A DNA stretch of 49,911 bases from an uncultured Actinomycetes bacterium (GTDB lineage Bacteria; Actinomycetota; Thermoleophilia; Miltoncostaeales; Miltoncostaeaceae): positions 1 through 49,911 of the forward strand of contig CALMXK010000171.1 of assembly GCA_937871165.1 (NCBI GenBank), given 5' to 3'. Positions within the stretch are counted from its first letter, which is position 1, and each line of letters starts with the position of its first letter. Position numbers and translations under genes: made by a program. The notes under the pieces were generated by a model. It ran no database searches. It was not told where the DNA came from and worked only from the letters and a program-made list of their open reading frames with translations. Below, piece after piece: positions 34,723-49,911 of this stretch.

Positions 34723-35847
34723 TTGACTGACGCACCCGACGCCACACCGGACGGCGCGGCCACCCCGACCGGGGTTGTGACGAGTGCCGCCGCGCCCGAC
34801 CGGCCGCGGCCGCGACGCATCGTGGTCGTCTTGACGGCGTTTCTCACGCTCGTAGGGCTCGGCGTGTTCGTCGCACCGTTCGCGTTCCCCATCCATCCAC
34901 CGGTCGTCCAGGGCATCCGCTCCACCGTCGCGTTCAGTCCCGACGGCGCAGCCGGTGGTCGCGACATCGCCCGGATCTCGCTTCGAATGAATGAGCCGGG
35001 TTCGCTCACCGTCTCGGTCGTCGATCCCTCCGACCGCGGCGGCGCAGTCCGCAAGGTTGTGAGCGACGGGCACGCCGGAACCGGCAAGCGCGCCATCCAG
35101 TGGGACGGCACGGACACGAACGGCAAGTTCGTCGGCGACGGCCGCTACATCGTCAACATCAAGGCGCGCGCGGACAAGAAGTCCTGGAGCGGCAACCAGC
35201 GCTCATGGAACAGCAACCGCTCCATCATCGTCGACACCACGCCTCCGAAGGTGGCGCGTGTGGCGGTTCAGTCGTCCATCGCCCTCGGCGGCAAGGGCGC
35301 CTGCCAGGTCCAGGCGACCACGGCCGAGGCCGGCACACTGACCATCGACGCGATTGCCGCTCCCGGCACCGGCACGCCGGTCGCGACGCGCAGTCCGGCA
35401 CCCGCCGGAAAGAACGCGACGGTGAAGTGGAGCTGGGACGGAACGGCCAAGGGCACCCCGGTGCCCGCCGGCCTGTACGTCATTCACGCCTCGCTCGCCG
35501 ATCGCCTGGGCAACGCCATGCAAACAACATCCACATGCTGGGTCGCTCACGGCGGCGGAGCGGTGGTGCCGGCCGCACCCAAGCGGGGTGAGACCGTCCG
35601 CGTCAGACTCACCGGAACCGACGGCAAACCGCTTCCGGCAACGACACCGGTCACCCTGTCCCTCGCAGAGCGAAACGGCGCGCTCGGAGGAAGCACACTC
35701 GACGTGGTGGGCGAGTCGATCGGCGGTGTCGCTCGCGGTCCACTCGGACAGGTCAAGCTCGTCATGCCGCGCAAGCGCGGCCTCGACGGGCTCTGGCTGG
35801 TTGCAACAACGTCCACTCAGCGGGTCATCATCCCGCTTCGCCCATGA
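34723..35847 (+). CDS. Membrane-anchored protein with FlgD-Ig-like domains
   Basis: 374 residues. Cytoplasmic Pro/Ala-rich start, one membrane segment (about 33-56), then Ig-like repeats outside. GKRAIQWDGTDTNGKFVGDGRYIVNIKA and ATVKWSWDGTAKGTPVPAGLYVIHA are two copies of the FlgD_ig motif (WDG...VpaGxYxi). No flagellar genes are nearby, so this is a generic surface module. The TTG start is the only reasonable one in frame, since ATG at 34713 is out of frame; it is uncertain. The stop overlaps the O-antigen ligase start by ATGA. Confidence 0.75.
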   Translation: MTDAPDATPDGAATPTGVVTSAAAPDRPRPRRIVVVLTAFLTLVGLGVFVAPFAFPIHPPVVQGIRSTVAFSPDGAAGGRDIARISLRMNEPGSLTVSVVDPSDRGGAVRKVVSDGHAGTGKRAIQWDGTDTNGKFVGDGRYIVNIKARADKKSWSGNQRSWNSNRSIIVDTTPPKVARVAVQSSIALGGKGACQVQATTAEAGTLTIDAIAAPGTGTPVATRSPAPAGKNATVKWSWDGTAKGTPVPAGLYVIHASLADRLGNAMQTTSTCWVAHGGGAVVPAAPKRGETVRVRLTGTDGKPLPATTPVTLSLAERNGALGGSTLDVVGESIGGVARGPLGQVKLVMPRKRGLDGLWLVATTSTQRVIIPLRP

Positions 35848-37379
35848 GCACCCTCGAAACCTTTCGCCTGATCGCCGCCGGCGCCGCCGCGCTGGCCGTC
35901 CTGGCGCTCATGTTCCCCGACGCGAACCCCAATTCGCCACGTCGCAGCGCCCTGATCGGACTGCTGACCGGCGCATGGGCGCTGCTCACCGCAAGCCTGA
36001 TCCCGCAAGGCGACGTCGATCGCATCACGGATCGCCTCACCGGCGTGGGGATCCTGGTCGCGGTGCTGGCGCTCGCAGCCGCCATCGCCGTCGTCCTTGT
36101 GAACCGATTCCCCACGCTCTGGTTCGTCCTCCTGGCGATCGCCCTGCCGATCAGACTTCCGCTGAACATCGGCTCACAGAGCGCGAACCTGCTCCTCCCC
36201 CTGTACTGCGTCATCATCGTCGGCGTCGTCGCGCTGATCGTCCGGTCCCGTCGCGGGACTGCCGCCGCCTCGCCGCGCTCGGCCTGGATCGCCGTTCCAC
36301 TCGGCGCCTTCGTGATCGTGACGCTCGTGTCGCTCACCTGGACCAGTGACTGGACCGAAGCCACGGCCAAGGTCGTGTTCTTCTATCTGCCCTTCATCCT
36401 GCTGTTTCACCTGGTGGGTGCGTGGTGGCCCCTCGCCCAGCAGCCGCTTCGCCCCATCGCCGCGACGACCGTGACGATCGCCGTCGCCACTGCCCTCATC
36501 GCCCTCCTGCAGTTCGCGACGCGCTCGATCTGGTGGAACACCACCCTGAAACAGGGCAACACCTACAACCGGTTCTTTCGCACCAACGGCATCTTCTTCG
36601 ACCCGAACATCCTCGGGCGATTCCTGGCGCTCGCCATCATCGTCGCCCTGGCGTACCTTGTCGTCACGGATGACCGGGTGCAGACCTGGATCGTCGCCAC
36701 CGCCATCGTGGTGATCGCCGCCGGTCTCGTCGTCACGTTCTCGCGCTCAAGCGCGCTCATGCTGCTCGTCGGACTGGTGATCATCGGCATCCGGGCCTTC
36801 GGCGCCGTCAAGACCATCACGGTCACGATTGCGGCCGTCGTCTTGACCGCGGGGCCGGCGCTCGCACTCAGCGAGAACATCCGTGACAAGACAACGTCCA
36901 TGGTCGGCATCGCGAAGGCGAGCGAAGGCCGTGCCCGCCTGGTGAAAGGTGGCGTCGAGCTGTGGCGGCACGAGCCGGTGCGTGGTGTCGGCATCGGGTC
37001 GTTCGCCCAGCGCTACGCCGAGACGCTGCCGGCACGGGAGCGCCGTCGCACCCGGGTCGTCATCTCCCATACCGCGCCCATCACCGTGCTCGCGGAACTC
37101 GGTCTCGTCGGCGTCGGCTTCTTCGCAGCCCTCATCCTCGGAACCTTCATCGGCCTTGTGCGCGGCATTCGCCGGGGACCGGCCCGCGCCATGTCCCTGA
37201 TCACGATCCTCGCCGCCCTCGGGGGCATCTTGGTGCACAGCGTGTTGTACTCGGCGTTCTTTGAAGACCCGTACGTCTGGGTGCTGCTCGCTGCGGGCGC
37301 CGCGCTGTGCGTCTCCGCGACCGGACGATCCGAGATCGGCGACGGCGTCGCCAAGGAGCTGCCGGCGCAGGTCGGATGA
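35844..37379 (+). CDS. O-antigen ligase/polymerase family membrane protein (Wzy_C)
   Basis: 511 residues with about twelve helices. Central loop GNTYNRFFRTNGIFFDPNILGRFLALAI and the large outside loop with RARLVKGGVELWRHEPVRGVGIGSFAQRY match the Wzy_C (O-antigen ligase, WaaL-like) family, including the conserved RG-G-GxxF region and a His in SHTAPITVLAELG. It would ligate or polymerise lipid-linked repeats outside the membrane. Coupled to the FlgD-like gene; 15 bases separate it from the next. Confidence 0.88.
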   Translation: MSTLETFRLIAAGAAALAVLALMFPDANPNSPRRSALIGLLTGAWALLTASLIPQGDVDRITDRLTGVGILVAVLALAAAIAVVLVNRFPTLWFVLLAIALPIRLPLNIGSQSANLLLPLYCVIIVGVVALIVRSRRGTAAASPRSAWIAVPLGAFVIVTLVSLTWTSDWTEATAKVVFFYLPFILLFHLVGAWWPLAQQPLRPIAATTVTIAVATALIALLQFATRSIWWNTTLKQGNTYNRFFRTNGIFFDPNILGRFLALAIIVALAYLVVTDDRVQTWIVATAIVVIAAGLVVTFSRSSALMLLVGLVIIGIRAFGAVKTITVTIAAVVLTAGPALALSENIRDKTTSMVGIAKASEGRARLVKGGVELWRHEPVRGVGIGSFAQRYAETLPARERRRTRVVISHTAPITVLAELGLVGVGFFAALILGTFIGLVRGIRRGPARAMSLITILAALGGILVHSVLYSAFFEDPYVWVLLAAGAALCVSATGRSEIGDGVAKELPAQVG

Positions 37380-37383
37380 CGGT

Positions 37384-37392
37384 GGGGTGATC
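37384..37392 (+). promoter_or_regulatory. Ribosome binding site that argues for an ATC start at 37395
   Basis: GGGGTGATC matches GAGGTGATC in eight of nine positions and has its core seven bases before ATC at 37395. The first in-frame ATG is at 37419, 31 bases from the core. Confidence 0.55.
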
Positions 37393-37394
37393 GC

Positions 37395-38507
37395 ATCAGA
37401 ATCCTCTGCCTGAGCAACATGTACCCGGGTCCGTCGGAGCCGGACTACGGTGCGTTCATCGCCACGATGTGCGCCGCGATGGAGCGCCAGGGGCATGAGG
37501 TGGACCGGGTCGTGATCGACTCCCGGGCAAGCGGCGCACTCTCCACGCCCCGCAAGTACGTGAACCTCGCACGACGTGCCGTCCCGGCCGCCAAACGGGC
37601 GGATGTCATCTACGGGCACTACCTGTTCCCGACCGGGGCGATCGCCGCCGCGGCCGGACGAATTGCCAAGCGCCCCTGGGTGCTCACGGCCCACGGCGGC
37701 GATGTGCGAAACCTGTCGAGCCCAACCATCGCCCGCCTGTCCACCCCTGGGATCACGGGCGCATCGGCGATCATCGCGGTGAGCCGCTACCTGGCCACGG
37801 AGCTGCGGGAGTCGGCGCGCGCCCTGCCACCGGTGCACGTCATCGACATGGGCGTCGACATGGACCGCTTCCGGCCGAGCGATCGAGGCGCCGCGCGCCG
37901 CGCGCACGGGCTGCCGGACGACGTTCCGGTGATCCTCGCGGTCGGTGGCCTCAACGAGCGGAAGAATCCGCTGCGACTGCTCCAGGCGTTTCGGCTGCTT
38001 CAGTCACGCCACCCCCGCGCCCGACTGGTGTTCGTCGGAGCCGGCCCCCAGGAGGCCGCGCTGCGTGCCGGCGTGCGCTTGGAGGGTCTCGGCGACGCGG
38101 TCATCCTGACGGGCGCGTTGCCCGCCGCGGGCGTGGCCGAGTGGATGGCCGCCTGCGACCTGTTGGCGTTGCCGAGCCGTGTCGAGCCGCTCGGCGTCGT
38201 GGCGCTCGAAGCGCTCGCGAGCGGACGCCCCGTCGTCGCGACCCGAATTGGCGGAACTGCGGAGGTGGTCGGACGAGCCGGGGTGCTCGTCGATCCCTAC
38301 GACCCGCGCTCCATCGCCGACGGCATCACCCGGGTGCTTGCGCGTCCGCCCTCGGTCGCCCAGTGCCGGACGACTGCGGAAGGGCATGACGTCAACCGCC
38401 AGGCGCGGCGCGTGCTCGACATCCTTGAACGTGCGGCACGGGACCACACTGGCGGGACGGTCCCGGGCGCTACTGCGTCGACGACTGGGAGGCCGTACGA
38501 CTCGTGA
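37395..38507 (+). CDS. GT4 glycosyltransferase, probable ATC start
   Basis: 370 residues with the extended start. GT-B fold: the N-terminal domain holds YGHYLFPTGAIAAA and LTAHGGDVRN, the C-terminal domain has GLNERKNPLRLLQAF and RVEPLGVVALEALASGRPVVAT with the conserved Glu pair. Starting at ATG 37419 would remove the first strand RILCLSNMYPG, standard in this family, and no ATG, GTG or TTG lies between the upstream stop and 37419. ATC at 37395 restores it and has a good ribosome site. It overlaps the convergent cyclic-di-GMP gene by 38 bases. Confidence 0.85.
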   Translation: MRILCLSNMYPGPSEPDYGAFIATMCAAMERQGHEVDRVVIDSRASGALSTPRKYVNLARRAVPAAKRADVIYGHYLFPTGAIAAAAGRIAKRPWVLTAHGGDVRNLSSPTIARLSTPGITGASAIIAVSRYLATELRESARALPPVHVIDMGVDMDRFRPSDRGAARRAHGLPDDVPVILAVGGLNERKNPLRLLQAFRLLQSRHPRARLVFVGAGPQEAALRAGVRLEGLGDAVILTGALPAAGVAEWMAACDLLALPSRVEPLGVVALEALASGRPVVATRIGGTAEVVGRAGVLVDPYDPRSIADGITRVLARPPSVAQCRTTAEGHDVNRQARRVLDILERAARDHTGGTVPGATASTTGRPYDS

Positions 38508-41121
38508 TCGGGTCGTCCTCCAGCATCCCCTCGTTCCAGAGATCGATCATCGCGGCGGCCGCAAGCGGACAGAACTGCCGGCCGCTTTCCGCCGCGATCT
38601 CGCCGGCGGCCTCGGAGCCCTCACGTGTGCGGCCGTAGGTGCGAACGCTGGTCATCGCGTCCCAGGCGTCGGCCACCGAAATGATGCGTGCGCCGGCGGC
38701 GAGGTTCTCGCCGCTGATGCGATCCGGATAGCCGAGCCCGTCCCACCGCTCGTGGTGGCCCCGAACCCAGGTCACCTGCTCCGGCGTCAACACGTCGGAC
38801 ACGATCTCGGCACCGAGCGCAGCGTGCGCCTCCACCTGTTGCTTCTCGGCGCCGGTGAGTCGGTCGGGTTTGAACAGCAGGCTGTCCGGGACGCCGATCT
38901 TGCCGACGTCGTGGAGCAGCGCGGCCTCCCGCAGAAGCTCCAGACGATCGGGCTCCCAGCCGAGTCGACGTCCGATCCGCACGGCGACATTGGCGACACG
39001 CTCGGCATGTCGCGCCGTGGAGGGATCCTTTGCGTCGACGGCGCGCGCAAGTGCTCGAAGCGCCGTGACCGCCTGGGTTTTCGCCAGACGTTCGGCGCGT
39101 TCGGACGCCGAGAGTTCACGCACGACGTCGGGCGAGTACCGGAACGTCGCATCCCTGCCACTCGCCTTGGCCCAGTAGAGGGCACCGTCGGCGAGGCGCA
39201 TCAGGGTGGCGGCGTCACTTGCCTGGTGCAGGTCCGCGACACCGGCCGACGCGGTGATGCTGCCGACACCGTCCGCAAACGGGGCCTCGGCGACCGCCTG
39301 CCGAGCCCGCTCGGCGGCACGCCAGGCGTTCAAGCCATCGCTGCCGGGCAGGATCCATGCAAACTCCTCGCCACCGACACGGGCGACGATCTCACCGAAG
39401 CGCGCCTCACCGGCAAGGCGTCGCGCCGCTTCCGAAAGCACCGCGTCACCCGCGTGGTGGCCGAAGGTGTCGTTCACCTCTTTGAAGTTGTCGAGGTCGA
39501 TCATGACGAGCGCCAGATCGGTCTGGTCGTGGCGGGCCCGCGCAACCTCCGCCTCGAGCCGTTCATGGAAGCTGCGGTGATTGGCGAGACCGGTCAACGG
39601 ATCGGTGGCCGCCTGGCTGGCCAGGCGGGCGCGGGCGTCGGCGTTTGCCACCGTCAGGCCCACGAGCTCGGCAAAGCGTGCCAGACGATCCTCCACACCA
39701 GGGGCGAAGGCCTTGCGGTCGTGGCCGAGCACGGCCACAGCGCCCCAGCGCACACTGCCGACCTGCACGGGCGCAGCGGCCCCGCAGCGATAGCCGCGCT
39801 CGATCAGCAGGTCCCCGCTGATGGCGTCGACCGCGGAGAAGTCGTCCACGCGTGCGGGCCGGCCGGTCTGGAACACGAGCGCCGTGGGCGAGCCGCCGTC
39901 GAGCGGTACCCGCGACGGTGGACGCTCCGCGGGACGACCCGGATCCACCCACACGCCCACGTCGATCGTCCGGTCGGTCTGCAGTTCGAACCGAGTGACG
40001 ACCGCCGCATCGGCGCCGAGGAGGGTCGCCGTCTCGCACGCCACCAGATCGAACACCGCCGAGGGCTCGGCGCCACCCGCGACGAACGTCGCCACGCGGC
40101 GCAACACCTCGCGCTCCACGGACAGGTTGTGCAACTCGGCTTCGGCGGCGCGGCGCGAGGTGACGTCCTTCAAGACATGCAGGACACCACGTCCATGAGC
40201 GAGTGGCGACGCGCTGAGCAGCAGGTGCCGCGATCCGCCGTCGGACGCGGCGAACGTGATGTCCGCCTCGCCTTGGAACCGTTCGGGCACCTCGTTGATC
40301 CACGGAGCCGGGCTGCCCTCAAGCTCCCGCGCCGACAGTCCGGTGAGCTCGGTCAACCGCTCGTTGGTCTGCACCACGACCCCGTCCTCGTCGAGCACGG
40401 CAAGGCCGTCCTGCACCGATGCCATGACCGCGTCGTTCGCGTCGCGCTCCGCCTGGACTTCCGCGATCGCCGCGCGACGCTTGCGATCGATCGTCACGAA
40501 CATCGCGGTCGCCACGCTCACAAGCAGCGTGATCAGGACGCCGAGGCCGACCAGGATCTTGGAGATGAGGCGGTCGGCCTGCTCCCCCTCACGAAGGAGC
40601 TTTGCGTTGAGGATCCCGGCCCATCGCGTCAACCCTCGGTCAAGTTCGGTGACGTTCGCCCGTGCCCGTTGAACCGCGGCGTCCTGCTTGCGTTGGTTGT
40701 CGGTCTGATTGAGCACACCCGACAGGACGACGGTGGTGATCGTTCCGAGCGACGCCTGCACCTCGTCGATGACCGCCCGTTCGTCGGGATAGTGCTGGCG
40801 CTCCCTGACCAGTTGCCCGAACGTCGTGATCTCGCGCATGAACATCTGCTGAACCGCGGGCGTGATGCCCGGGGATGCGCTGTCGAGCACGCGCCGCGCC
40901 CAGTAGTCGGCCTGCATCTCCTGAATCGTGTGGCGGCTTTCGACAAGCGAACGATTGGCGTTTTGGAGTTCCCGACGCCCGTCGCCCGCGTTCGCGACAC
41001 TTCTGCCCATGAGGATCGAGGCCACAAGGATCGCCACGGTCGGGACGACGACGGCCACCAGCTGCAGGCGTTGCAGACGGCGCTGCCGTGCGGTTGACTG
41101 GTCTTTCGAGCCGACCTTCAC
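38470..41121 (-). CDS. Membrane PAS-GAF-GGDEF-HD-GYP protein (cyclic-di-GMP synthesis and breakdown)
   Basis: 883 residues. Membrane helices at about 21-38 and 188-210 flank a helical outside domain. Then PAS (about 225-320), GAF (about 350-495), GGDEF with GGEEF at 583-587 (active type), and HD-GYP with His737-Asp738, HHERWDGLGYPD at 789-800. Both catalytic sites are intact. The inhibitory RxxD site before GGEEF reads RFGE, so product inhibition may be weak. GTG at 41121 follows GAGGA closely and overlaps a short upstream frame (GTGA). It is antisense to its polysaccharide neighbours and likely controls their output. Confidence 0.92.
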   Translation of the reverse strand: MKVGSKDQSTARQRRLQRLQLVAVVVPTVAILVASILMGRSVANAGDGRRELQNANRSLVESRHTIQEMQADYWARRVLDSASPGITPAVQQMFMREITTFGQLVRERQHYPDERAVIDEVQASLGTITTVVLSGVLNQTDNQRKQDAAVQRARANVTELDRGLTRWAGILNAKLLREGEQADRLISKILVGLGVLITLLVSVATAMFVTIDRKRRAAIAEVQAERDANDAVMASVQDGLAVLDEDGVVVQTNERLTELTGLSARELEGSPAPWINEVPERFQGEADITFAASDGGSRHLLLSASPLAHGRGVLHVLKDVTSRRAAEAELHNLSVEREVLRRVATFVAGGAEPSAVFDLVACETATLLGADAAVVTRFELQTDRTIDVGVWVDPGRPAERPPSRVPLDGGSPTALVFQTGRPARVDDFSAVDAISGDLLIERGYRCGAAAPVQVGSVRWGAVAVLGHDRKAFAPGVEDRLARFAELVGLTVANADARARLASQAATDPLTGLANHRSFHERLEAEVARARHDQTDLALVMIDLDNFKEVNDTFGHHAGDAVLSEAARRLAGEARFGEIVARVGGEEFAWILPGSDGLNAWRAAERARQAVAEAPFADGVGSITASAGVADLHQASDAATLMRLADGALYWAKASGRDATFRYSPDVVRELSASERAERLAKTQAVTALRALARAVDAKDPSTARHAERVANVAVRIGRRLGWEPDRLELLREAALLHDVGKIGVPDSLLFKPDRLTGAEKQQVEAHAALGAEIVSDVLTPEQVTWVRGHHERWDGLGYPDRISGENLAAGARIISVADAWDAMTSVRTYGRTREGSEAAGEIAAESGRQFCPLAAAAMIDLWNEGMLEDDPITSRTASQSSTQ

Positions 41122-41198
41122 GTTCCTCGCATCAGCATTCGTTCGGTCGACCACGCACGGGCGGGTGCCTGGTCGAGTGCAGCTTGTGCCTGCACCAC
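41118..41198 (-). CDS. Possible 26-residue leader peptide upstream of the cyclic-di-GMP gene
   Basis: A frame from GTG at 41198 (or GTG at 41195) to TGA at 41118 lies five to eight bases after TAAAAT and ends exactly on the next gene's start (GTGA). It would encode a peptide ending RMLMRGT. This is the same coupling used elsewhere in the window, but a short frame in high-GC DNA can arise by chance. Confidence 0.3.
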   Translation of the reverse strand: MVQAQAALDQAPARAWSTERMLMRGT

Positions 41199-41203
41199 TC
41201 CGG

Positions 41204-41209
41204 ATTTTA
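41204..41209 (-). promoter_or_regulatory. -10 box for the cyclic-di-GMP gene
   Basis: TAAAAT on the minus strand, 82 bases before GTG at 41121. It is one of few A/T-rich hexamers in the gap. Confidence 0.45.
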
Positions 41210-41507
41210 CCCGGTCTGCGGCAAATGACCGAATCGGGATTCGAAGCGGCGCTGCTAGTGTCCAAACCGAGAATCCGCTGACGGTTTTTCGTGAGTGAGA
41301 CCGGTCCGACCAGGCCGCAGGGTCTGGTGCGTACCTCCGGGGGGCGCGTCCAACAACACGCAAACGACGTTGCCGGCAGGACGACGCGCCTGACGGCGTG
41401 CGGCGGCGCACGCGGACGACGCGTCACCGTTGGCCGGCGCAACGCCCGGTACGGTCTTTCCCGACATCCGTCCGCCTTGCCCGACACATGGAGAGACACC
41501 CGCACCG
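41210..41507. other. Divergent intergenic region between the cyclic-di-GMP gene and the half GT4
   Basis: The gap between the divergent starts is 386 bases. Besides the TAAAAT box and the possible leader frame, TAGTGT at 41256-41261 is a possible plus-strand -10 box. AAACCG (41264-41269) pairs with CGGTTT (41282-41287), followed by T's, a weak hairpin. Plus-strand frames here look like random Arg-rich sequence. Nothing else is recognised. Confidence 0.4.
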
Positions 41508-42449
41508 TTGACCGCCACCCGTACCGCCATCTTCGTGCGCGCCGACGACGGGCGGGTCGTGGCACGCCTCCGTGATGTCGCCGAACGGAAGATCGACGTC
41601 ACGGTGTTCGCCGGATCCCAGGATCGTCGCGCGCGCCGTCTTGCCGCCGCGGCCGACGCGGAGCTTGGCGCGATCAGCCCCGACGCCCACCTGCCGGTCG
41701 TGCTGTGCCCGGATGGGCCGCCACGTGGCGGCATCGTCGGCGCGCTGATCCTGGTCGTCCCGACCGCGGATGGCACGGCATGGCAGGTCCTGTATCCGGA
41801 TGGGCGGATCGCGGACGCCATCGACGGGATCGACCCGGAGGCGATCGATGCCGCACGTGCGTCCGGCGCCACACTCGGGCCGGTCGGCACGCCCCCGTCA
41901 CCGACTGCTCCGCGGCTGGACGGCCTGACCGCCATTCACGTTGCGAGCGTCCCGAAGACCATCGACGGCGCACGCCTCCCCGCGACGGTCGCGGTGCTCC
42001 GCTCCGCGGGCGGAACCGTCGACATGCTCACCGTCCCGGACACCGCCACGCGCGCAGGACGGATTCGCGCCGGTTGGCAGCTCGTGCGCCGCGCCGCCAT
42101 CGACGGACCGGACGTGCTGCACGTCCACGATCCCGAGCTGCTGCCCGCGGCGACCTTCGCCGCCGTGCGGGGCCGGTGCGCCGTGATCTACGAGGCCCGC
42201 GGCGATCTTCGAGCGACTGCACGGACCCGGGAGTGGATTCCGCGACTGATCCGTCGCCCGTTCGCACACGTCGCGGGACGGCTCGAGAACATCCTCGCCG
42301 CACGGGTGAGCGCGGTGCTCACCACCGGCAAATCCGCCGCGATCACCTTCGCGTCGCGCGGCGGGGATGCCGTGTGCATCGCCGATCCCGAACAGGAATC
42401 TGCGAAACTCATCGCCCTCTACGGACGGCTCACCGGACGGATCGACTGA
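41508..42449 (+). CDS. Half-length GT4-like protein (N-terminal domain only)
   Basis: 313 residues. The first 120 residues form a compact domain I do not recognise. The rest, from GLTAIHVASVPKTIDGARLPATVAVL through PDVLHVHDPELLPAATFAA and VSAVLTTGKSAAI, is the acceptor-side domain of a GT4 enzyme. The donor-binding C-terminal domain, with its Glu pair, is missing: the protein ends LYGRLTGRID just before the next GT4 gene. TTG at 41508 is a guess; TTG at 41430 is possible. It may be a degenerate enzyme or act with the next protein. Confidence 0.6.
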   Translation: MTATRTAIFVRADDGRVVARLRDVAERKIDVTVFAGSQDRRARRLAAAADAELGAISPDAHLPVVLCPDGPPRGGIVGALILVVPTADGTAWQVLYPDGRIADAIDGIDPEAIDAARASGATLGPVGTPPSPTAPRLDGLTAIHVASVPKTIDGARLPATVAVLRSAGGTVDMLTVPDTATRAGRIRAGWQLVRRAAIDGPDVLHVHDPELLPAATFAAVRGRCAVIYEARGDLRATARTREWIPRLIRRPFAHVAGRLENILAARVSAVLTTGKSAAITFASRGGDAVCIADPEQESAKLIALYGRLTGRID

Positions 42450-42454
42450 CTCGA

Positions 42455-43669
42455 ATGCGCGTGCTCTACGTCTCCCAGTACTTCGTTCGCGGTGACCAGC
42501 CCGGTGGCGTGCGCCACTGGCACCACACGCAGGCCCTGCGCGAGCGCGGCCACGACGTCCACATCGTCACCTCCTATGTGCAGCACAAGGAGCGCACCAT
42601 CCCGGAGCGCTTCCGCGGCAAGAAGGTCGTCCGTGAATCGCAGGACGGCGTGACGATGTGGTTCACCTACTCGACCCCGGGGTACGGCCGTGACATGCGT
42701 TCGCGCCTGTCCAACTACCTGAGCTTCGCCACGTGGTCGGCGCTCGCCGGGTTCCGCGCTCCGCGACCGGACGTCGTGCTGGCATCGTCACCCTCGCTTC
42801 CGTCCGCGGCGGCCACGGCACTTGTGGCGCTCGTCAAGCGGACCCCGTTCGTGTTCGAGGTCCGTGACCTGTGGCCCGAATCGGCCATCGCGATGGGGCT
42901 TGTGCGGCCGGGCAGCGGGTTCGCCCGGGTCGCCGCGCTGCTCGAGCGGTTCTGTTACCGGCGCGCCGCCCATGTCATCGCCCTGACCGACGGCATCCGC
43001 GACGGCGTGATCGCCAAGGGCGTGGCGCCGCAGCACGTCACCTTGGTCACCAACGGCGTCGACCACCTGTCGACCCCCGTCGTGCCCGTCGCGGCGCCAG
43101 TGCCGGACGACGCATTCGTCGCGATGTATGTGGGCGCCCATGGCACCTACAGCTCGCTCGACACGGTGCTCCACGCCGCAGACCTGCTTCGCGACCGCCC
43201 TGACATCCGCTTCATCTTCGTCGGCGGCGGCGATCAGAAGCCGGGACTCATGGAGCGCGCGCGTTTCATGGGCCTCGACACGGTCACGTTCATCGACTCG
43301 GTGCCGAAGTCGCAGGTGCCGGCGTGGCTCGCACGCGCGGACGTCTGTCTGCTGCCCTACCAGGACAAGGCGCTGTTTGCGGGCGCGCTTCCCAACAAGA
43401 CGTTCGACTACATGGGCGCAGGCAAGCCGATCCTCGCCGCCGTTCCGGAAGGCGAGCTGACGACGGTCATCGCGAAGTCCGGGTGCGGGGTGGCGGTGGC
43501 GCCGGAGGACCCTGCCGCGATGGCCGCCGCGATCCGCGCGATGGCCGACGACCGCGCGGGTTGTGCGACCATGGGCGCATCGGGAGCGAGGTACGTCGAG
43601 GAGCACTACGACCGCGCACGTCTGGCCGGTGTGGTCTGCGACATTCTGGAGCGCGTCGCTCGTCGCTGA
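42455..43669 (+). CDS. GT4 glycosyltransferase (WcaI/WbuB-like)
   Basis: 404 residues, full GT-B enzyme. Starts MRVLYVSQYFVRGDQPGGVRHWHHTQALRERGHDV. The mid-domain has PFVFEVRDLWPESAIAMG, typical of WbuB/WcaI. The C-terminal domain has YVGAHGTYSSLDTVL, FVGGGDQKPGL and ALPNKTFDYMGAGKPILA with its catalytic Glu in EGELTTV. It builds the repeat unit of a surface polysaccharide on a lipid carrier; sugar unknown. ATG at 42455 lies five bases after the previous stop. The next gene, a phosphoglycosyl transferase, starts 10 bases downstream. Confidence 0.93.
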   Translation: MRVLYVSQYFVRGDQPGGVRHWHHTQALRERGHDVHIVTSYVQHKERTIPERFRGKKVVRESQDGVTMWFTYSTPGYGRDMRSRLSNYLSFATWSALAGFRAPRPDVVLASSPSLPSAAATALVALVKRTPFVFEVRDLWPESAIAMGLVRPGSGFARVAALLERFCYRRAAHVIALTDGIRDGVIAKGVAPQHVTLVTNGVDHLSTPVVPVAAPVPDDAFVAMYVGAHGTYSSLDTVLHAADLLRDRPDIRFIFVGGGDQKPGLMERARFMGLDTVTFIDSVPKSQVPAWLARADVCLLPYQDKALFAGALPNKTFDYMGAGKPILAAVPEGELTTVIAKSGCGVAVAPEDPAAMAAAIRAMADDRAGCATMGASGARYVEEHYDRARLAGVVCDILERVARR

Positions 43670-43679
43670 GCGCGACGGG

Positions 43680-44372
43680 ATGCATATGCAAAGATTGGAT
43701 GACGTGAGCCCGCACGATTCCTCGCAGCCCGCCGTCGGTGGCCGGGCAAAACGCATCATGGACCTGGCCATCGCCGTTCCGGCGCTCGTCGTCCTGTCGC
43801 CGGTGCTCGTCCTCATCGCCATTCTTGTGCGACGCGACTCTCCCGGGCCCGCGATCTTCAAGCAACGTCGAGCAGGCCTGCATGGGAACGAGTTCGACCT
43901 GTTGAAGTTCCGTTCGATGGTCGACGGCGCCGAGTCGATCGGGTCGGGACTCACGGTGCAGGTGAACGACGACCGGATCACCAAGCTGGGTCGCCTCCTT
44001 CGGCGCACCTCGCTGGACGAGCTGCCGCAACTCATCAATGTGGTGCGAGGTGAGATGAGCATCGTCGGCCCGCGACCGACGATCGCATCGCAGATCAGCC
44101 GGTACACCGACGAGCAGCGACGGCGGCTGGACGCACGTCCCGGAATCACGGGGCTGGCCCAGGTGCGTGGCCGCGCAAGCCTTCCTTGGTCGACCCGCAT
44201 CGCACTTGATCTTGAGTACATCAACGGCTGGAGCCTGCGAAGCGATCTCACGATCCTTGCCCGAACCCTGCTCGTCGTGGTGCGTGGCAGCGACACCTAC
44301 CGGGGCGAGGTCGCACCCTTCGATCTCCCCGAGCGAAGCCCCGCGGAGGAGCAGGATCCCGCCCGTCACTGA
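43680..44372 (+). CDS. Initiating phosphoglycosyl transferase (bacterial sugar transferase, WbaP/PglC-like)
   Basis: Transfers sugar-1-phosphate from a UDP-sugar to undecaprenyl phosphate, the first step of repeat synthesis. 230 residues, a monotopic short form. One reentrant helix at about 26-48, then KRIMDLAIAVPALVVL..., KFRSM near 76, catalytic DE dyad at 113-114 (SLDELPQLINV), RGEMSIVGPRP and RPGITGLAQVRGR. All motifs intact. Starts at 43680, 43686 and GTG 43704 are possible; I chose the first. Sits right after the GT4. Confidence 0.94.
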   Translation: MHMQRLDDVSPHDSSQPAVGGRAKRIMDLAIAVPALVVLSPVLVLIAILVRRDSPGPAIFKQRRAGLHGNEFDLLKFRSMVDGAESIGSGLTVQVNDDRITKLGRLLRRTSLDELPQLINVVRGEMSIVGPRPTIASQISRYTDEQRRRLDARPGITGLAQVRGRASLPWSTRIALDLEYINGWSLRSDLTILARTLLVVVRGSDTYRGEVAPFDLPERSPAEEQDPARH

Positions 44373-44415
44373 CCCAGGCGCACCGTCCCGCCTTCGGCCC
44401 CTCCGACACCGCCGA

Positions 44416-44421
44416 TAGGCT
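44416..44421 (+). promoter_or_regulatory. -10 box, probably leaderless, for the propeller gene
   Basis: TAGGCT, eight bases before GTG at 44430. It makes the TTG at 44421 unlikely as a start. Confidence 0.4.
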
Positions 44422-44429
44422 TGTCGATC

Positions 44430-45701
44430 GTGAATCCACCAGAGCACCCACAGAAGACCTGGGAACCGATGCGTTTCCGGCACAAGCTGCTGTGGGCCGT
44501 CGGGTTCATCGCTTCGACCGTGCTCGGTCTCATCGCGATCAACACGCTGGTCGCACCGGATGAGGCACTCGTCCGCGGAACGACGACCGGCTTCTCCACC
44601 GTGGGGGACGACGCACCCCCCGACGAGGCGCCGCCAAGTGCCGACTCGTGGCCGGAATACGGCTACAACAGCCAAGGGACGCGGTCGAACCCGACGCTGA
44701 GCGACCTTGGCATCCCCGGCGAGAAGCGGTGGCAGGCGAATGCCGGAAGTCTCGTCGAGTTTCCGCCCGTCATCGACGACGGCATCGCCATCGTCGGGAC
44801 CAACCACCGGCGCGTCATGGCCATCGACGTCCGGACCGGCCGGCGCAAGTGGCAGTACTTCACCAAGGGGCGCATCGCCTCCAGCCCGGCCATCGCCAAC
44901 GGGGTCGCGTACCTCACGACGACCGACGGGTACCTGCTGGCCCGACGCATCACCGATGGCGACAAGCTGTGGGAGAAGAAGATCGGGAGCTCCAGCGAGT
45001 CGTCCCCGACGATCGTCGGCGATGCGCTGTTCGTGGCGACGCTCGACGCCGCCGTGCTGCGGTTCGATCTGCGCGGCAACCAGATCTGGCGCGTCAAGGT
45101 GCCCGGACCGGTCAAGTCGGCGGTCGCCGTCTACAAGGACACGATCATCGTCGGTGACTACGCGGGCCACCTCTCGTCGCTGGCACAGGGGGACGGCAAG
45201 CGCATCTGGTCGGTGTCGAGTCCGGGGCGGGCACTTCGCGGCAGTGGGCGGTTCTACGCCGGGCCGTCCGTTCAATACGGACGGGTCTACATCGGCAATG
45301 TCAACGGACGCTTCATGGCGTTCAACGCGCAGACCGGAAAGCTCGCGTGGCTGCGCAGCACCCGTGACTGGGTGTACTCGAGCGCCGCGATCGCCAATCG
45401 GACCGTCTTCGTCGGAAGCTACGACCATCGCCTCTACGCCTTCGACGCGGCAAGCGGCGACGTGCGCTGGACCTTCGACGCCGGCGAACGCATCAGCGGT
45501 TCACCGAGTGTGATCGGACGCACGGTGTACGTGTCCACGCTCGGCCGCACCCGGTCAAGCGGGCGCACATACGGTGTGGACATGGTGACCGGGCGGAAGG
45601 TCTGGACCTTGCCCGACGGCCGCTACAGCCCGGCGATCGCCGTTCGTTCCACGATCCTGATCGTCGGTCGCGAGATGATCTACGGGTTCACACCCAGTTG
45701 A
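44430..45701 (+). CDS. Membrane-anchored PQQ-type beta-propeller protein
   Basis: 423 residues. Cytoplasmic start, membrane segment (about 22-41), Pro/Asp linker, then repeated blades such as GTNHRRVMAIDVRTGRRKWQY, GSYDHRLYAFDAASGDVRWTF and GLDMVTGRKVW-type units. These match PQQ-like WD propeller repeats as in BamB, but catalytic PQQ residues are not evident, so it is likely a scaffold. GTG at 44430 is chosen; TTG 44421 is close upstream. The stop overlaps the MurJ gene's TTG (TTGA). Confidence 0.85.
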   Translation: MNPPEHPQKTWEPMRFRHKLLWAVGFIASTVLGLIAINTLVAPDEALVRGTTTGFSTVGDDAPPDEAPPSADSWPEYGYNSQGTRSNPTLSDLGIPGEKRWQANAGSLVEFPPVIDDGIAIVGTNHRRVMAIDVRTGRRKWQYFTKGRIASSPAIANGVAYLTTTDGYLLARRITDGDKLWEKKIGSSSESSPTIVGDALFVATLDAAVLRFDLRGNQIWRVKVPGPVKSAVAVYKDTIIVGDYAGHLSSLAQGDGKRIWSVSSPGRALRGSGRFYAGPSVQYGRVYIGNVNGRFMAFNAQTGKLAWLRSTRDWVYSSAAIANRTVFVGSYDHRLYAFDAASGDVRWTFDAGERISGSPSVIGRTVYVSTLGRTRSSGRTYGVDMVTGRKVWTLPDGRYSPAIAVRSTILIVGREMIYGFTPS

Positions 45702-47248
45702 ACCGGGGGGCGATCGCACGCGCCGCACTGCTCGTGACGGCGTTCACCCTGATTTCCCGCGTGCTCGGCTTCCTTCGGGAGGCGTACCTGGCGAAGGAGT
45801 TCGGCACCAGCGCCGCCACCGACGCGTTCGCCACGGCCCTGATGCTCGTCAACTCCGTGGCGGCCATTCTGGCCTACACGATGGTTTCGGTGATCATCCC
45901 GGCGATCGAACGGGAGCGCCACGACCACGATGAGCGCTCCAGCTGGCGACTGGTGTGGACGGTCGGGGCCTGGGTCACGATCGGGCTCGTCGGACTGGGC
46001 GCCGTCGTCGGCCTTTGGCCCGACCTGGTCGTCGCCCCGTTCGGTTTTGACGAGGCTCGTGCGCAGCTTCTGCGCGAGCTGGTGCAGATCATGGCGCCCG
46101 CACTCGCCCTGCAAGGCATCACCGGACTGCTGACCGCGGTCTTGCAGGCGCAGCGCAAGTTCCTCGGGCCGGCCGTCGTCGGGATCGCCTTCAACCTCGG
46201 GATCATCGTCGCGCTCGCGTTGTTCGGCGGCATTCGCGCAGCCGCGTGGGGCGTCGTCATCGGCGCCGCTGCCCAGGTGCTCTTCCAACTGCCTCAGCTG
46301 ATCGGCGCGATGCGCGAGGTCGGGGTCTGGCGCCCGCAGCTCACCCACCCGCGCCTGGGTGTCGTGCTCGCAAGCGCCGGACCGATCGCCCTCGCGAGCG
46401 TGCTGCAACAGATCAACGCGTTCTCGGACAAGTACTTCGCGGCGCCGCTCGGGGATGGACACGTGTCGGCGCTGAACTTCGCGCACGCCGCGGGTTCCCT
46501 TCCGCGCACCGCGTTTTTGATGCCACTGCTCGCCCCGCTGTTTCCGGTCATCGCGCGCATGGCCGCCGAACGCCGCCACACGGACACCGCCGGGGCCTTT
46601 CATCGGGCTGCCGGTGTTCTCGCCTTGGTGTCGCTTCCCCTCGGAGCGTTCATGGTGCTGTACGCGAACGAGGTTGCACAGCTGATGTTCGGGCGCGGCA
46701 GGTGCGACATCTCCTGCGTGACGGACATCGCCGGGCCACTGCGCTTTTTGGCCATCGCCACGTGGGCGAGCTTCTTGGGCTATCTGCTCAACCGAACCAT
46801 CAACGCGATGAATGCCTCGCGCGACATCTTCCTGTCGACCGCGATCAGCGTCGTGGTGGTGATCGGCCTCGACATCGTGCTCGTGGGGCCGATGGGGATC
46901 TCCGGGCTGGCGCTTGCGTCGAGCCTCGGCGTCTTCACCTCACTCGTCATCAGTCTGGTCCAGCTCAAGCGGATCCTTCCGCAGGCGGGCCTTCGCCCGC
47001 TTGCCATCCAGCAGGCGCGGATGCTCCTCGCAATCGCACTCGCGTGCGTCGCAGCCTGGGCGAGCAACGGGTATGCGCCGACGCTTGACCGCCCGTGGCG
47101 AGAGATGGCCCTGCCACTGGCGGTCAAGACCCTGATCGGCGGCATGGTCTTCATCTCCGCCATGCGCATTCTGGCGCCCGCGGTGCTGCGCGAGGGTGCG
47201 GAGGCGGCACGCAGCCTCGTCAAACGGCGCTCGAACGAGGCTTCATGA
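45698..47248 (+). CDS. MurJ/MviN-family lipid flippase
   Basis: 516 residues with about fourteen helices. The N-terminus TAFTLISRVLGFLREAYLAKEFGTSAATDAFATA is the family's most conserved segment, and QAQRKFLGPAVVGIAFNLGIIVALALFGG is typical. It moves undecaprenyl-linked precursors outward: lipid II in MurJ. Given the location between polysaccharide genes, an alternative role in surface polymer export is plausible. TTG start coupled to the propeller gene (TTGA) and ATGA-coupled to the next gene. Confidence 0.92.
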   Translation: MNRGAIARAALLVTAFTLISRVLGFLREAYLAKEFGTSAATDAFATALMLVNSVAAILAYTMVSVIIPAIERERHDHDERSSWRLVWTVGAWVTIGLVGLGAVVGLWPDLVVAPFGFDEARAQLLRELVQIMAPALALQGITGLLTAVLQAQRKFLGPAVVGIAFNLGIIVALALFGGIRAAAWGVVIGAAAQVLFQLPQLIGAMREVGVWRPQLTHPRLGVVLASAGPIALASVLQQINAFSDKYFAAPLGDGHVSALNFAHAAGSLPRTAFLMPLLAPLFPVIARMAAERRHTDTAGAFHRAAGVLALVSLPLGAFMVLYANEVAQLMFGRGRCDISCVTDIAGPLRFLAIATWASFLGYLLNRTINAMNASRDIFLSTAISVVVVIGLDIVLVGPMGISGLALASSLGVFTSLVISLVQLKRILPQAGLRPLAIQQARMLLAIALACVAAWASNGYAPTLDRPWREMALPLAVKTLIGGMVFISAMRILAPAVLREGAEAARSLVKRRSNEAS

Positions 47249-48711
47249 AAGCCCGCATCCGGTGGGAGCGGTGGGGTCCGCTCACGCTCATCCTCATGCT
47301 CGGCGTCGCACTTCGGGTGTGGTGTTGGGTCGGTCCGGACATGGCGTGGCTCTCCGACGAGTCGCGCTTCGCCACTGTCGTCAAGAACATGACCAACGGA
47401 TATCTGCCGGACGGTCCCACCGAGTGGTTCGGAACCCGGGCCGTTCTGCTCGCGCCGGCGGCGTTGTTCATGCGGCTGTTCGGGGCAAGCGACGTATCCG
47501 TGTCCATCTGGCCGTTCATCGGCTCCATGGGCGCAGTGCTCATGGCGTATCTCCTCGGCCGCGACCTGGCGAACCGGGGCGTTGGGCTGATGGCGGCGGG
47601 CCTCGTCGCTGCGGCCCCGATCGAAGTGCGCCTGAGCGGCTTCCTTCGTCCCGATGCGATCATGCCCGCGTTCGTCGCCCTCTCGGTGTGGTGTGCGCTC
47701 CGCGCGGCACGCAGTGAGTCCCACGCCACCCGTTGGGCGGTCGGCGGCGGTCTGGCGCTTGGCGCCGGATGGTCTGTCCGCGAGAGCGCGCTGATCATGG
47801 CGCCTGTTGTCATCGCGGCGGCGTGGCCGGTACTTCGGCGAGTGATCGTCCCGGGGATCATCGGCGCTGTCAGCGTGCCGCTTACCACCGCGCTGGTGTG
47901 GGTGCTGCTCGGCGGGTCGGCGATGGCGCCGATCTCGAGCGCGGGCGGTGAGCTCGCCTACCGCAATCCCATCGCCGCATGGAACTGGAGCGAGTCCTAC
48001 ACGTCCCAGCTGCTGCATGGTGCGCTTCGGCCCAACGATCTGCTGTTCTTCGCCGGCCCGGTGGTGGTGGCGACGCTGTCGGTGCACTGGTTTCGCGAAG
48101 AACGTCGCGCGATCCTGCCGATGATCTGGCTCGCCTGGGCGTTCTTCTACCTGGAGTTCGGGACGCTTCTGAACGTCACGAAGCCATACCGATACCTCAC
48201 ACTCTGCGTCATCCCGGCAGCGATCCTCGTGGCGCTTGCGCTCGACGGGTTGGACGTTCGGGTTGCGGTGGTCGCGGCGACGGTGCTCAGTGTGTGGGTA
48301 TTGTCGTCCCTCCCCATCCGCAGATACCGTTCCGATGACGTCGTCCTGCTGTCACGTGTCTCGGCCCAACTTGCGAAACTCCCCGCAGGTCCGATTGCAA
48401 CAGAGAGCTATACCTGGTGGACAAAGCTGCACATCTATCGCGCGACGAGCAGGCTGACGGTGCCCAAGGCGGAGGACCCGGCGTTCTCGACGCCGGCGCG
48501 AATCCGCCAGTTGCGCCAAATGACGCCGCTTCCGCTGGTGACCGACGCCCGGTATCTGGTGACGGGCCCGGTGCATCCGCGCGGCGGGTGGCCGAAGAAC
48601 TGGTCGCAGTACCGGGAGACGGTGCCGTCGACCGAAGGTCTGGAGCTGGTGGCGGACTTGGGACGCGCACAGATCTGGCGCCTGCCAGTGACCAACGCGG
48701 TGGCGCCGTGA
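47245..48711 (+). CDS. GT39/ArnT-like membrane glycosyltransferase
   Basis: 488 residues, about eleven helices and a soluble tail. The first outside loop, WVGPDMAWLSDESRFATVVKNM, has the Asp-Glu (DE) site of GT-C enzymes, here DESRF. It probably uses polyprenyl-phosphate sugars made by a GT2 enzyme. The tail (from about 390) is a soluble domain. Start overlaps the MurJ stop by ATGA. Substrate unknown. Confidence 0.8.
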   Translation: MKARIRWERWGPLTLILMLGVALRVWCWVGPDMAWLSDESRFATVVKNMTNGYLPDGPTEWFGTRAVLLAPAALFMRLFGASDVSVSIWPFIGSMGAVLMAYLLGRDLANRGVGLMAAGLVAAAPIEVRLSGFLRPDAIMPAFVALSVWCALRAARSESHATRWAVGGGLALGAGWSVRESALIMAPVVIAAAWPVLRRVIVPGIIGAVSVPLTTALVWVLLGGSAMAPISSAGGELAYRNPIAAWNWSESYTSQLLHGALRPNDLLFFAGPVVVATLSVHWFREERRAILPMIWLAWAFFYLEFGTLLNVTKPYRYLTLCVIPAAILVALALDGLDVRVAVVAATVLSVWVLSSLPIRRYRSDDVVLLSRVSAQLAKLPAGPIATESYTWWTKLHIYRATSRLTVPKAEDPAFSTPARIRQLRQMTPLPLVTDARYLVTGPVHPRGGWPKNWSQYRETVPSTEGLELVADLGRAQIWRLPVTNAVAP

Positions 48712-49415
48712 CGTCGACCACCTCGACCGTCGCCGTGGTGATCCCGGCGCTGAACGAGGCCAAGACGGTCGGCGGGGTGGTGCGCCGGGTTCGGGAGGTC
48801 CTGCCCGACGCCGCGGTGATCGTGGTCGACGACGGCTCCTCCGACGGCACCGGCGCCGTTGCGCAGGCAGCCGGAGCGCAGGTCGTGACGCACGGCGCGC
48901 CGGGTGGATATTCGACAGCACTCCAGGACGGATTTGCCGCTGCCATCGCCGGCGGGGCCGGTCAGGTCGTGCAGTTGGATGCGGATGGCCAGCACCGCCC
49001 GGAGGACATCCCACTGCTGCTGGCCGAGCTGGGTCATGTCGACATGGTCATCGGATCGCGCTTCACGGGCGCGAGCTACGACATGAGTCCTGCGCGGCGC
49101 GCTGGAATTGCGCTCTGCCAGGTGATGGTCAGGGCATGCGGGTTGCGTGTCAGTGACCCGACGTCGGGACTGCGCGCCATGCGCGCCCCGATTGCCGCGG
49201 AGGTCGCCGAACACGGGTTTCCGGACGGGTTGACCGAGTCGAGCTATCTGATCGGACTGACGCGGCGCGGGGTGTCCATCAGCGAGGTGCCCGTCACAAT
49301 GCACGCCTCGGCCAGTGAGTCGATGCACGACGGCTTTGGCGGGGTGCTGCACTTCGGTCGGATCGTGCGAGCAAGTGCGCGGGCGGCGCTGCGACGAGGC
49401 GGCCACGACAGCTGA
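48708..49415 (+). CDS. GT2 glycosyltransferase (DPM1/polyprenol-phosphate type)
   Basis: 235 residues. VAVVIPALNEAKTVGGVV, IVVDDGSSDGTGAVA, QLDADGQHRPEDIPLL (DXD site) and IGSRFTG are the classic GT2 motifs. No membrane helix, unlike the other GT2 in the window. It likely makes a polyprenyl-phosphate sugar for the GT39-like enzyme encoded just upstream. GTG start overlaps the upstream stop (GTGA). Confidence 0.9.
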   Translation: MTSTTSTVAVVIPALNEAKTVGGVVRRVREVLPDAAVIVVDDGSSDGTGAVAQAAGAQVVTHGAPGGYSTALQDGFAAAIAGGAGQVVQLDADGQHRPEDIPLLLAELGHVDMVIGSRFTGASYDMSPARRAGIALCQVMVRACGLRVSDPTSGLRAMRAPIAAEVAEHGFPDGLTESSYLIGLTRRGVSISEVPVTMHASASESMHDGFGGVLHFGRIVRASARAALRRGGHDS

Positions 49416-49864
49416 GGGCACACTGCCCGCGTCGCCCCCGAGGATCGGTCCGGCAATCGCGGCGGACGGGCTGACGAAGCGGTTTGGCGACCTCGTGGCG
49501 GTCGACGGCATCGCCTTCTCGATCGATCGAGGCGAATGCTTCGGGTTCCTCGGGCCGAACGGCGCCGGAAAGACGACGACCATGCGCATGCTCTCCTGCT
49601 TGGCGCGTCGCGACCACGGGTCACTGCACGTCCTCGACCACGACCCCGACGTCGATCCGCGCGGGCTGAAGGCTCGTCTGGGTGTCGTCGCGCAGGAGAT
49701 CAACCTCGATCTGGAGCTCACCGTCCGGGAGAACTTGCTGGTCTACGCACGTTACTTCGACGTGCCAAAGCAACTTGCCGACGAGAGAGTTGCCGACCTG
49801 CTGGACTTTGTCGAGCTCAAGGAACGGGGCGATTGGCGGGTCGATCGGCTGTCTGGAGGAATGC
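49375..49864 (+). CDS. ABC transporter ATPase, cut by adapter sequence
   Basis: The 163 codons seen encode the N-terminal part of an ATP-binding subunit, DrrA/ABC-2 type. Walker A is GPNGAGKTTT, Q-loop is VVAQE, and the signature LSGGM ends at the junction with the adapter. The base after it (c at 49864) fits the next codon (Q or R). Two starts are possible: GTG 49375, which overlaps the GT2 gene by 41 bases, or CTG 49423, with GAGG five bases upstream. The protein would energise a two-subunit exporter, probably for a lipid or surface polymer. Confidence 0.85.
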
Positions 49865-49911
49865 CTGTCTCTTATACACATCTCCGAGCCCACGAGACTA
49901 AGGCGAATCTC
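49865..49911 (+). other. Nextera sequencing adapter, non-genomic
   Basis: The transposon end CTGTCTCTTATACACATCT (49865-49883) is followed by CCGAGCCCACGAGAC (49884-49898), the eight-base i7 index TAAGGCGA (49899-49906, index N701) and ATCTC (49907-49911). This is the read-through of a library adapter at a contig end and should be trimmed. Confidence 0.98.

Follow-up and report, generated by a model that had tools for sequence, protein, structure and literature searches.

Genes and adapter at the 3′ end of the window

The window, i.e. the whole stretch of 49,911 nucleotides analysed here, is contig 171 (C171) of an assembly of 205 contigs (2.64 Mb, 94% complete). Positions 35844–49415 hold a series of genes for surface polysaccharides and lipid carriers, with an O-antigen-ligase-like gene (35844), a glycosyltransferase gene with 4-like and group 1 domains (41705), a PQQ beta-propeller gene (44421), a MurJ-like flippase gene (45698), a PMT-like gene (47095) and a GT2 gene (48417). 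The window also contains, on the plus strand, the 5′ part (49261–49864) of a gene for an ABC transporter ATPase (Pfam ABC_tran), in a stop-to-stop frame that begins at 49261 and shows homology from near 49447. The final 25 genomic bases (49840–49864, plus strand) are identical, in an overlap search, to the adapter-bearing end of another contig, C65, on the reverse strand.

The last 47 bases (49865–49911) correspond letter for letter to a Nextera read-through, in four ordered parts with zero bases left over, exactly as the first-pass annotation had described them (transposon end, second-read primer, i7 index and flow-cell start). The 19-base Tn5 mosaic end, or Nextera transposon end (CTGTCTCTTATACACATCT, 49865–49883, minus strand), has a single copy in the window, free of mismatches; among 100 dinucleotide shuffles, none contained it even with 3 mismatches admitted. 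The remainder of the Nextera read-2 primer site follows, read through as its complement (CCGAGCCCACGAGAC, 49884–49898); the same string stands 5′ of 92 i7 tags across the assembly. Next come the 8-base i7 index (TAAGGCGA, 49899–49906), common to 91 of these 92 tags, and the first five bases, ATCTC, of the P7-side flow-cell sequence (49907–49911), visible in full (ATCTCGTATGCCGTCTTCTGCTTG) with trailing A's at other contig ends. The parts carry their customary names, and we take TAAGGCGA to be index N701. At the opposite end, the first 120 bases of the window contain neither adapter nor a clear match to a partner contig.

Translation of the tail yields false peptides on both strands, as the same annotation had stated. 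A spurious plus-strand open reading frame (49536–49901) ends in the adapter peptide CLLYTSPSPRD, another on the minus strand (49621–49893) begins with MGSEMCIRD, and the ABC frame runs from LSGGM into adapter (LSGGM-PVSYTHLRAHETKANL / LSGGM-PVSYTHLRAHET). A further claim, that such peptides recur in databases, stood for the adapter DNA and was hardly substantiated for proteins. The Nextera adapter string is present in 41 of 50,697 phage records, in 9 of 72,556 plasmid records and in at least 120 stretches of viral contigs, and absent from 20,395 E. coli records. Among 396 genomes of the phylum, the one studied here included, 4 carry it, a count of i5 tails alone since the search pattern admits only the i5 form. 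At the protein level, a literature search with four such adapter peptides gave zero matches, and in one phage record the coding sequence of an annotated hypothetical protein starts within the adapter, in another frame (VYKRQ...).

Continuation of the ABC transporter gene

The terminal genomic bases of the window have one other occurrence in the assembly, at the adapter-bearing end of C65 on the opposite strand. The overlap measures exactly 25 bases, with an i7 tail on the window and an i5 tail on C65. Beyond it, C65 reads AGCGACGTGTTC..., so that genome and adapter diverge at base 49865, and the real boundary between them is exactly 49864/49865. In the same frame, C65 supplies 506 more bases of the ABC gene past 49864, stop included. 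The joined frame aligned across the junction with 24 of the 24 relative loci given to the search, the best at 67% over 304 amino acids. Joining also raised the score against TIGR01188 (DrrA) from 135 bits over 129 positions to 277.1 bits over all 302, and the joined protein scores 310 bits against NF010060.

The joined protein covers both of these models for DrrA/NodI-like ATPases of the ABC-2 type almost from end to end, at scores below the curated cut-offs (277.1 versus 312.45 bits for TIGR01188 and 310 versus 521 bits for NF010060). It is an ABC ATPase, and is not filed in the DrrA subfamily because its 277.1 bits fall short of the TIGR01188 cut-off. Neither here nor in the relatives examined was a permease gene seen immediately 3′ of the ATPase gene.

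On C65, a chemoreceptor-like gene and a TatC gene, recognized with Pfam, lie beyond the ABC gene on the opposite strand. The chemoreceptor-like gene, which encodes MCP signalling and GAF domains, occupies L310:5821-7719 (C65), between those for the ABC ATPase and TatC. The comparison of TatC neighbourhoods drew on 15 loci, with Pfam applied to two of them (L072 and L153); in both, TatC adjoins the ABC gene on the opposite strand. Sequence similar to TatC was seen by reading alone in L151, L155 and L073, and the longest downstream frame in L157 encodes a protein other than TatC.

Could the joint with C65 be a chance or strain-level match, the true neighbour of the window being another contig? 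Two other adapter-bearing ends, of C139 and C30, overlap nearly but inexactly, which means that the bin may contain related variants. The 25-base overlap between the window and C65 is, however, exact, unique in the assembly, in frame and backed by homology and synteny, which leaves such a mismatch of neighbours very improbable. Even less credit is due to the idea that the adapter is real and the ABC gene nevertheless truly broken in the genome at 49864. The window by itself does show a gene cut at LSGGM, but C65 continues in the same frame after the exact overlap, the joined protein matches relatives all the way to its terminus, and beyond the joined gene there is a TatC gene, as in relatives. 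The truncation at LSGGM is false, because C65 continues the ABC gene past the 25-base overlap; this in-frame continuation bears out the earlier view that the gene ends there artificially.

Adapter tails and Tn5 cuts across the assembly

The window is one case among many. The mosaic end is found in 224 copies in the 205 contigs, 112 on each strand, and the reversed-pattern control gave 0; the count covers the whole assembly, and the places of the first 100 of the 224 copies were listed. If every copy marks a separate contig end, 224 of 410 ends are affected. This abundance agrees with the first-pass suggestion that Nextera libraries had been assembled without full trimming. The distinct adapter ends gathered number 201, namely 95 of the i7 form, 98 of the i5 form and 8 too short to be classed. 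In 132 tails fetched whole, the length ranges from 19 to 77 bases, and many tails extend past the end of the adapter into A's. Reads of very short fragments run in this manner beyond the last base of the adapter.

The index pair is nearly constant. Full i7 tags carry TAAGGCGA in 91 of 92 cases and full i5 tags carry GCGATCTA in 94 of 95, the single exceptions being GGACTCCT in place of TAAGGCGA and ATAGAGAG in place of GCGATCTA. We take GGACTCCT to be N705, and GCGATCTA and ATAGAGAG to be the complements of an N/S501-type index and of N/S502, respectively. These odd tags of the genome (G000) are located on C135 (22672–22701) and C182 (31361–31390), and stem either from a second library that went into the assembly or from index cross-talk.

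The nine bases just inside the 201 ends favour a palindromic sequence, G T n C W G n A C. The shares are 51% for G at −9, 29% for T at −8, 44% for C at −6, 51% for A+T at −5, 44% for G at −4, 32% for A at −2 and 47% for C at −1. At eight of the nine positions χ2 is 18–33, while 40 control positions do not exceed 11.9; position −3 is unbiased in the 201 ends (χ2 1.0), and positions −10, −11 and −14, beyond the 9-base target, are somewhat biased too. The contig ends were made by Tn5. In addition, three pairs of ends have an overlap of exactly 9 bases, as long as the target duplication of Tn5, compared with a mean of 0.30 pairs in column shuffles, where three or more were reached in 1 of 300.

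Insertion into the ABC gene of an authentic mobile-element end (IS50/Tn5) would also account for a 19-mer equal to the Tn5 mosaic end and for the shared 9 bases, but is scarcely conceivable: the mosaic end is followed by primer, index, flow-cell sequence and contig end, it starts at most 77 bases from the contig end in 132 of the 132 tails fetched whole, the index pair is nearly constant, an intact ABC gene is present on C65, and neither a transposase nor an inhibitor gene of IS50/Tn5 was found beside the mosaic end of the window. A native transposon end is rejected precisely because index and flow-cell sequence come next. The 47 bases are instead, with a probability of about 98%, read-through into a Nextera adapter that escaped trimming and that the assembler placed on the contig end.

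As to mechanism, reads longer than their library fragments would have run on into the i7 (or i5) adapter and been left untrimmed. Adapter words shared between reads would then create branches in the assembly graph and contigs would stop where Tn5 had cut, which is probably why most of them stop exactly at the adapter. Facing each other across 25 bases, the two tails (i7 on the window, i5 on C65) may represent the two ends of one 25-base fragment; alternatively, two fragments may have been cut close together. In a partner search of the assembly with 25 adapter ends (from 60 sampled and 201 gathered), 22 were without a partner contig. Hence, the short-fragment account is documented for few ends, and the assembly by itself does not suffice to rejoin most ends.

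The search matched C65 with the window, and C139 with C30 in near-identical, inexact form; C156 gave a weak match to the first 21 bases of C26 (95%, E 0.10). The starts of C30 (L301) and C139 (L255), both adapter-bearing, overlap over ∼80 bases with few mismatches, as strain variants or paralogues would. Three i5/i7 pairs overlap by 25, 31 and 34 bases, each reading through a gene, with a type II secretion F domain and a formyltransferase C-terminal domain spanning the 31- and 34-base joints. Among the 9-base pairs, one joint spans a permease domain (53.9 bits), the C6/C27 joint a weak subtilase domain (18.7 bits, below the Pfam cut-off of 21.8), and the C25/C84 joint no Pfam domain. Overall, six joints were tested, with a clear protein domain across four, a weak one across one and none across one. 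Same-strand and reversed overlap controls gave 0 pairs of 9 bases or more. Matches of 10 and 12 bases were not counted as joints, being self-palindromes. It is tempting to propose that the tails carry usable information (i5/i7 identity, index, and 9-base Tn5 duplication or short shared insert), by which contigs could be rejoined and mixed libraries flagged, a possibility that we regard as rather doubtful.

Significance and relation to published adapter contamination

These observations matter for data quality only. At least 201 contig ends are non-genomic, creating false ends of open reading frames and false peptides, and the tails also split genes. Protein features near these contig ends should not be taken as biology until the ends are trimmed. 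The tail of the window is an ordinary sequencing artefact of a published kind, without biology of its own.

Adapter contamination concentrated at the ends of microbial contigs, with reduced contiguity, is described in the main text of Moeller et al. 2024 (PMC11536531). The contamination resembles the present one: adapter lies at contig ends, within tens of bases, its reverse complement stands at contig beginnings, and fewer contigs are merged. The difference resides in the adapter, since the screen in PMC11536531 used the TruSeq 12-mer AGATCGGAAGAG, whereas the adapter here is Nextera, a word absent from the main text of that article. The assembly contains 0 copies of the TruSeq 12-mer and would therefore pass such a screen. 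The second comparison concerns Tn5 itself. The palindromic tagmentation motif GTNYWRNAC, described in PMC8224930, fits the nine adapter-adjacent bases; in that source it is found at read starts, whereas here it marks the ends of assembled contigs.
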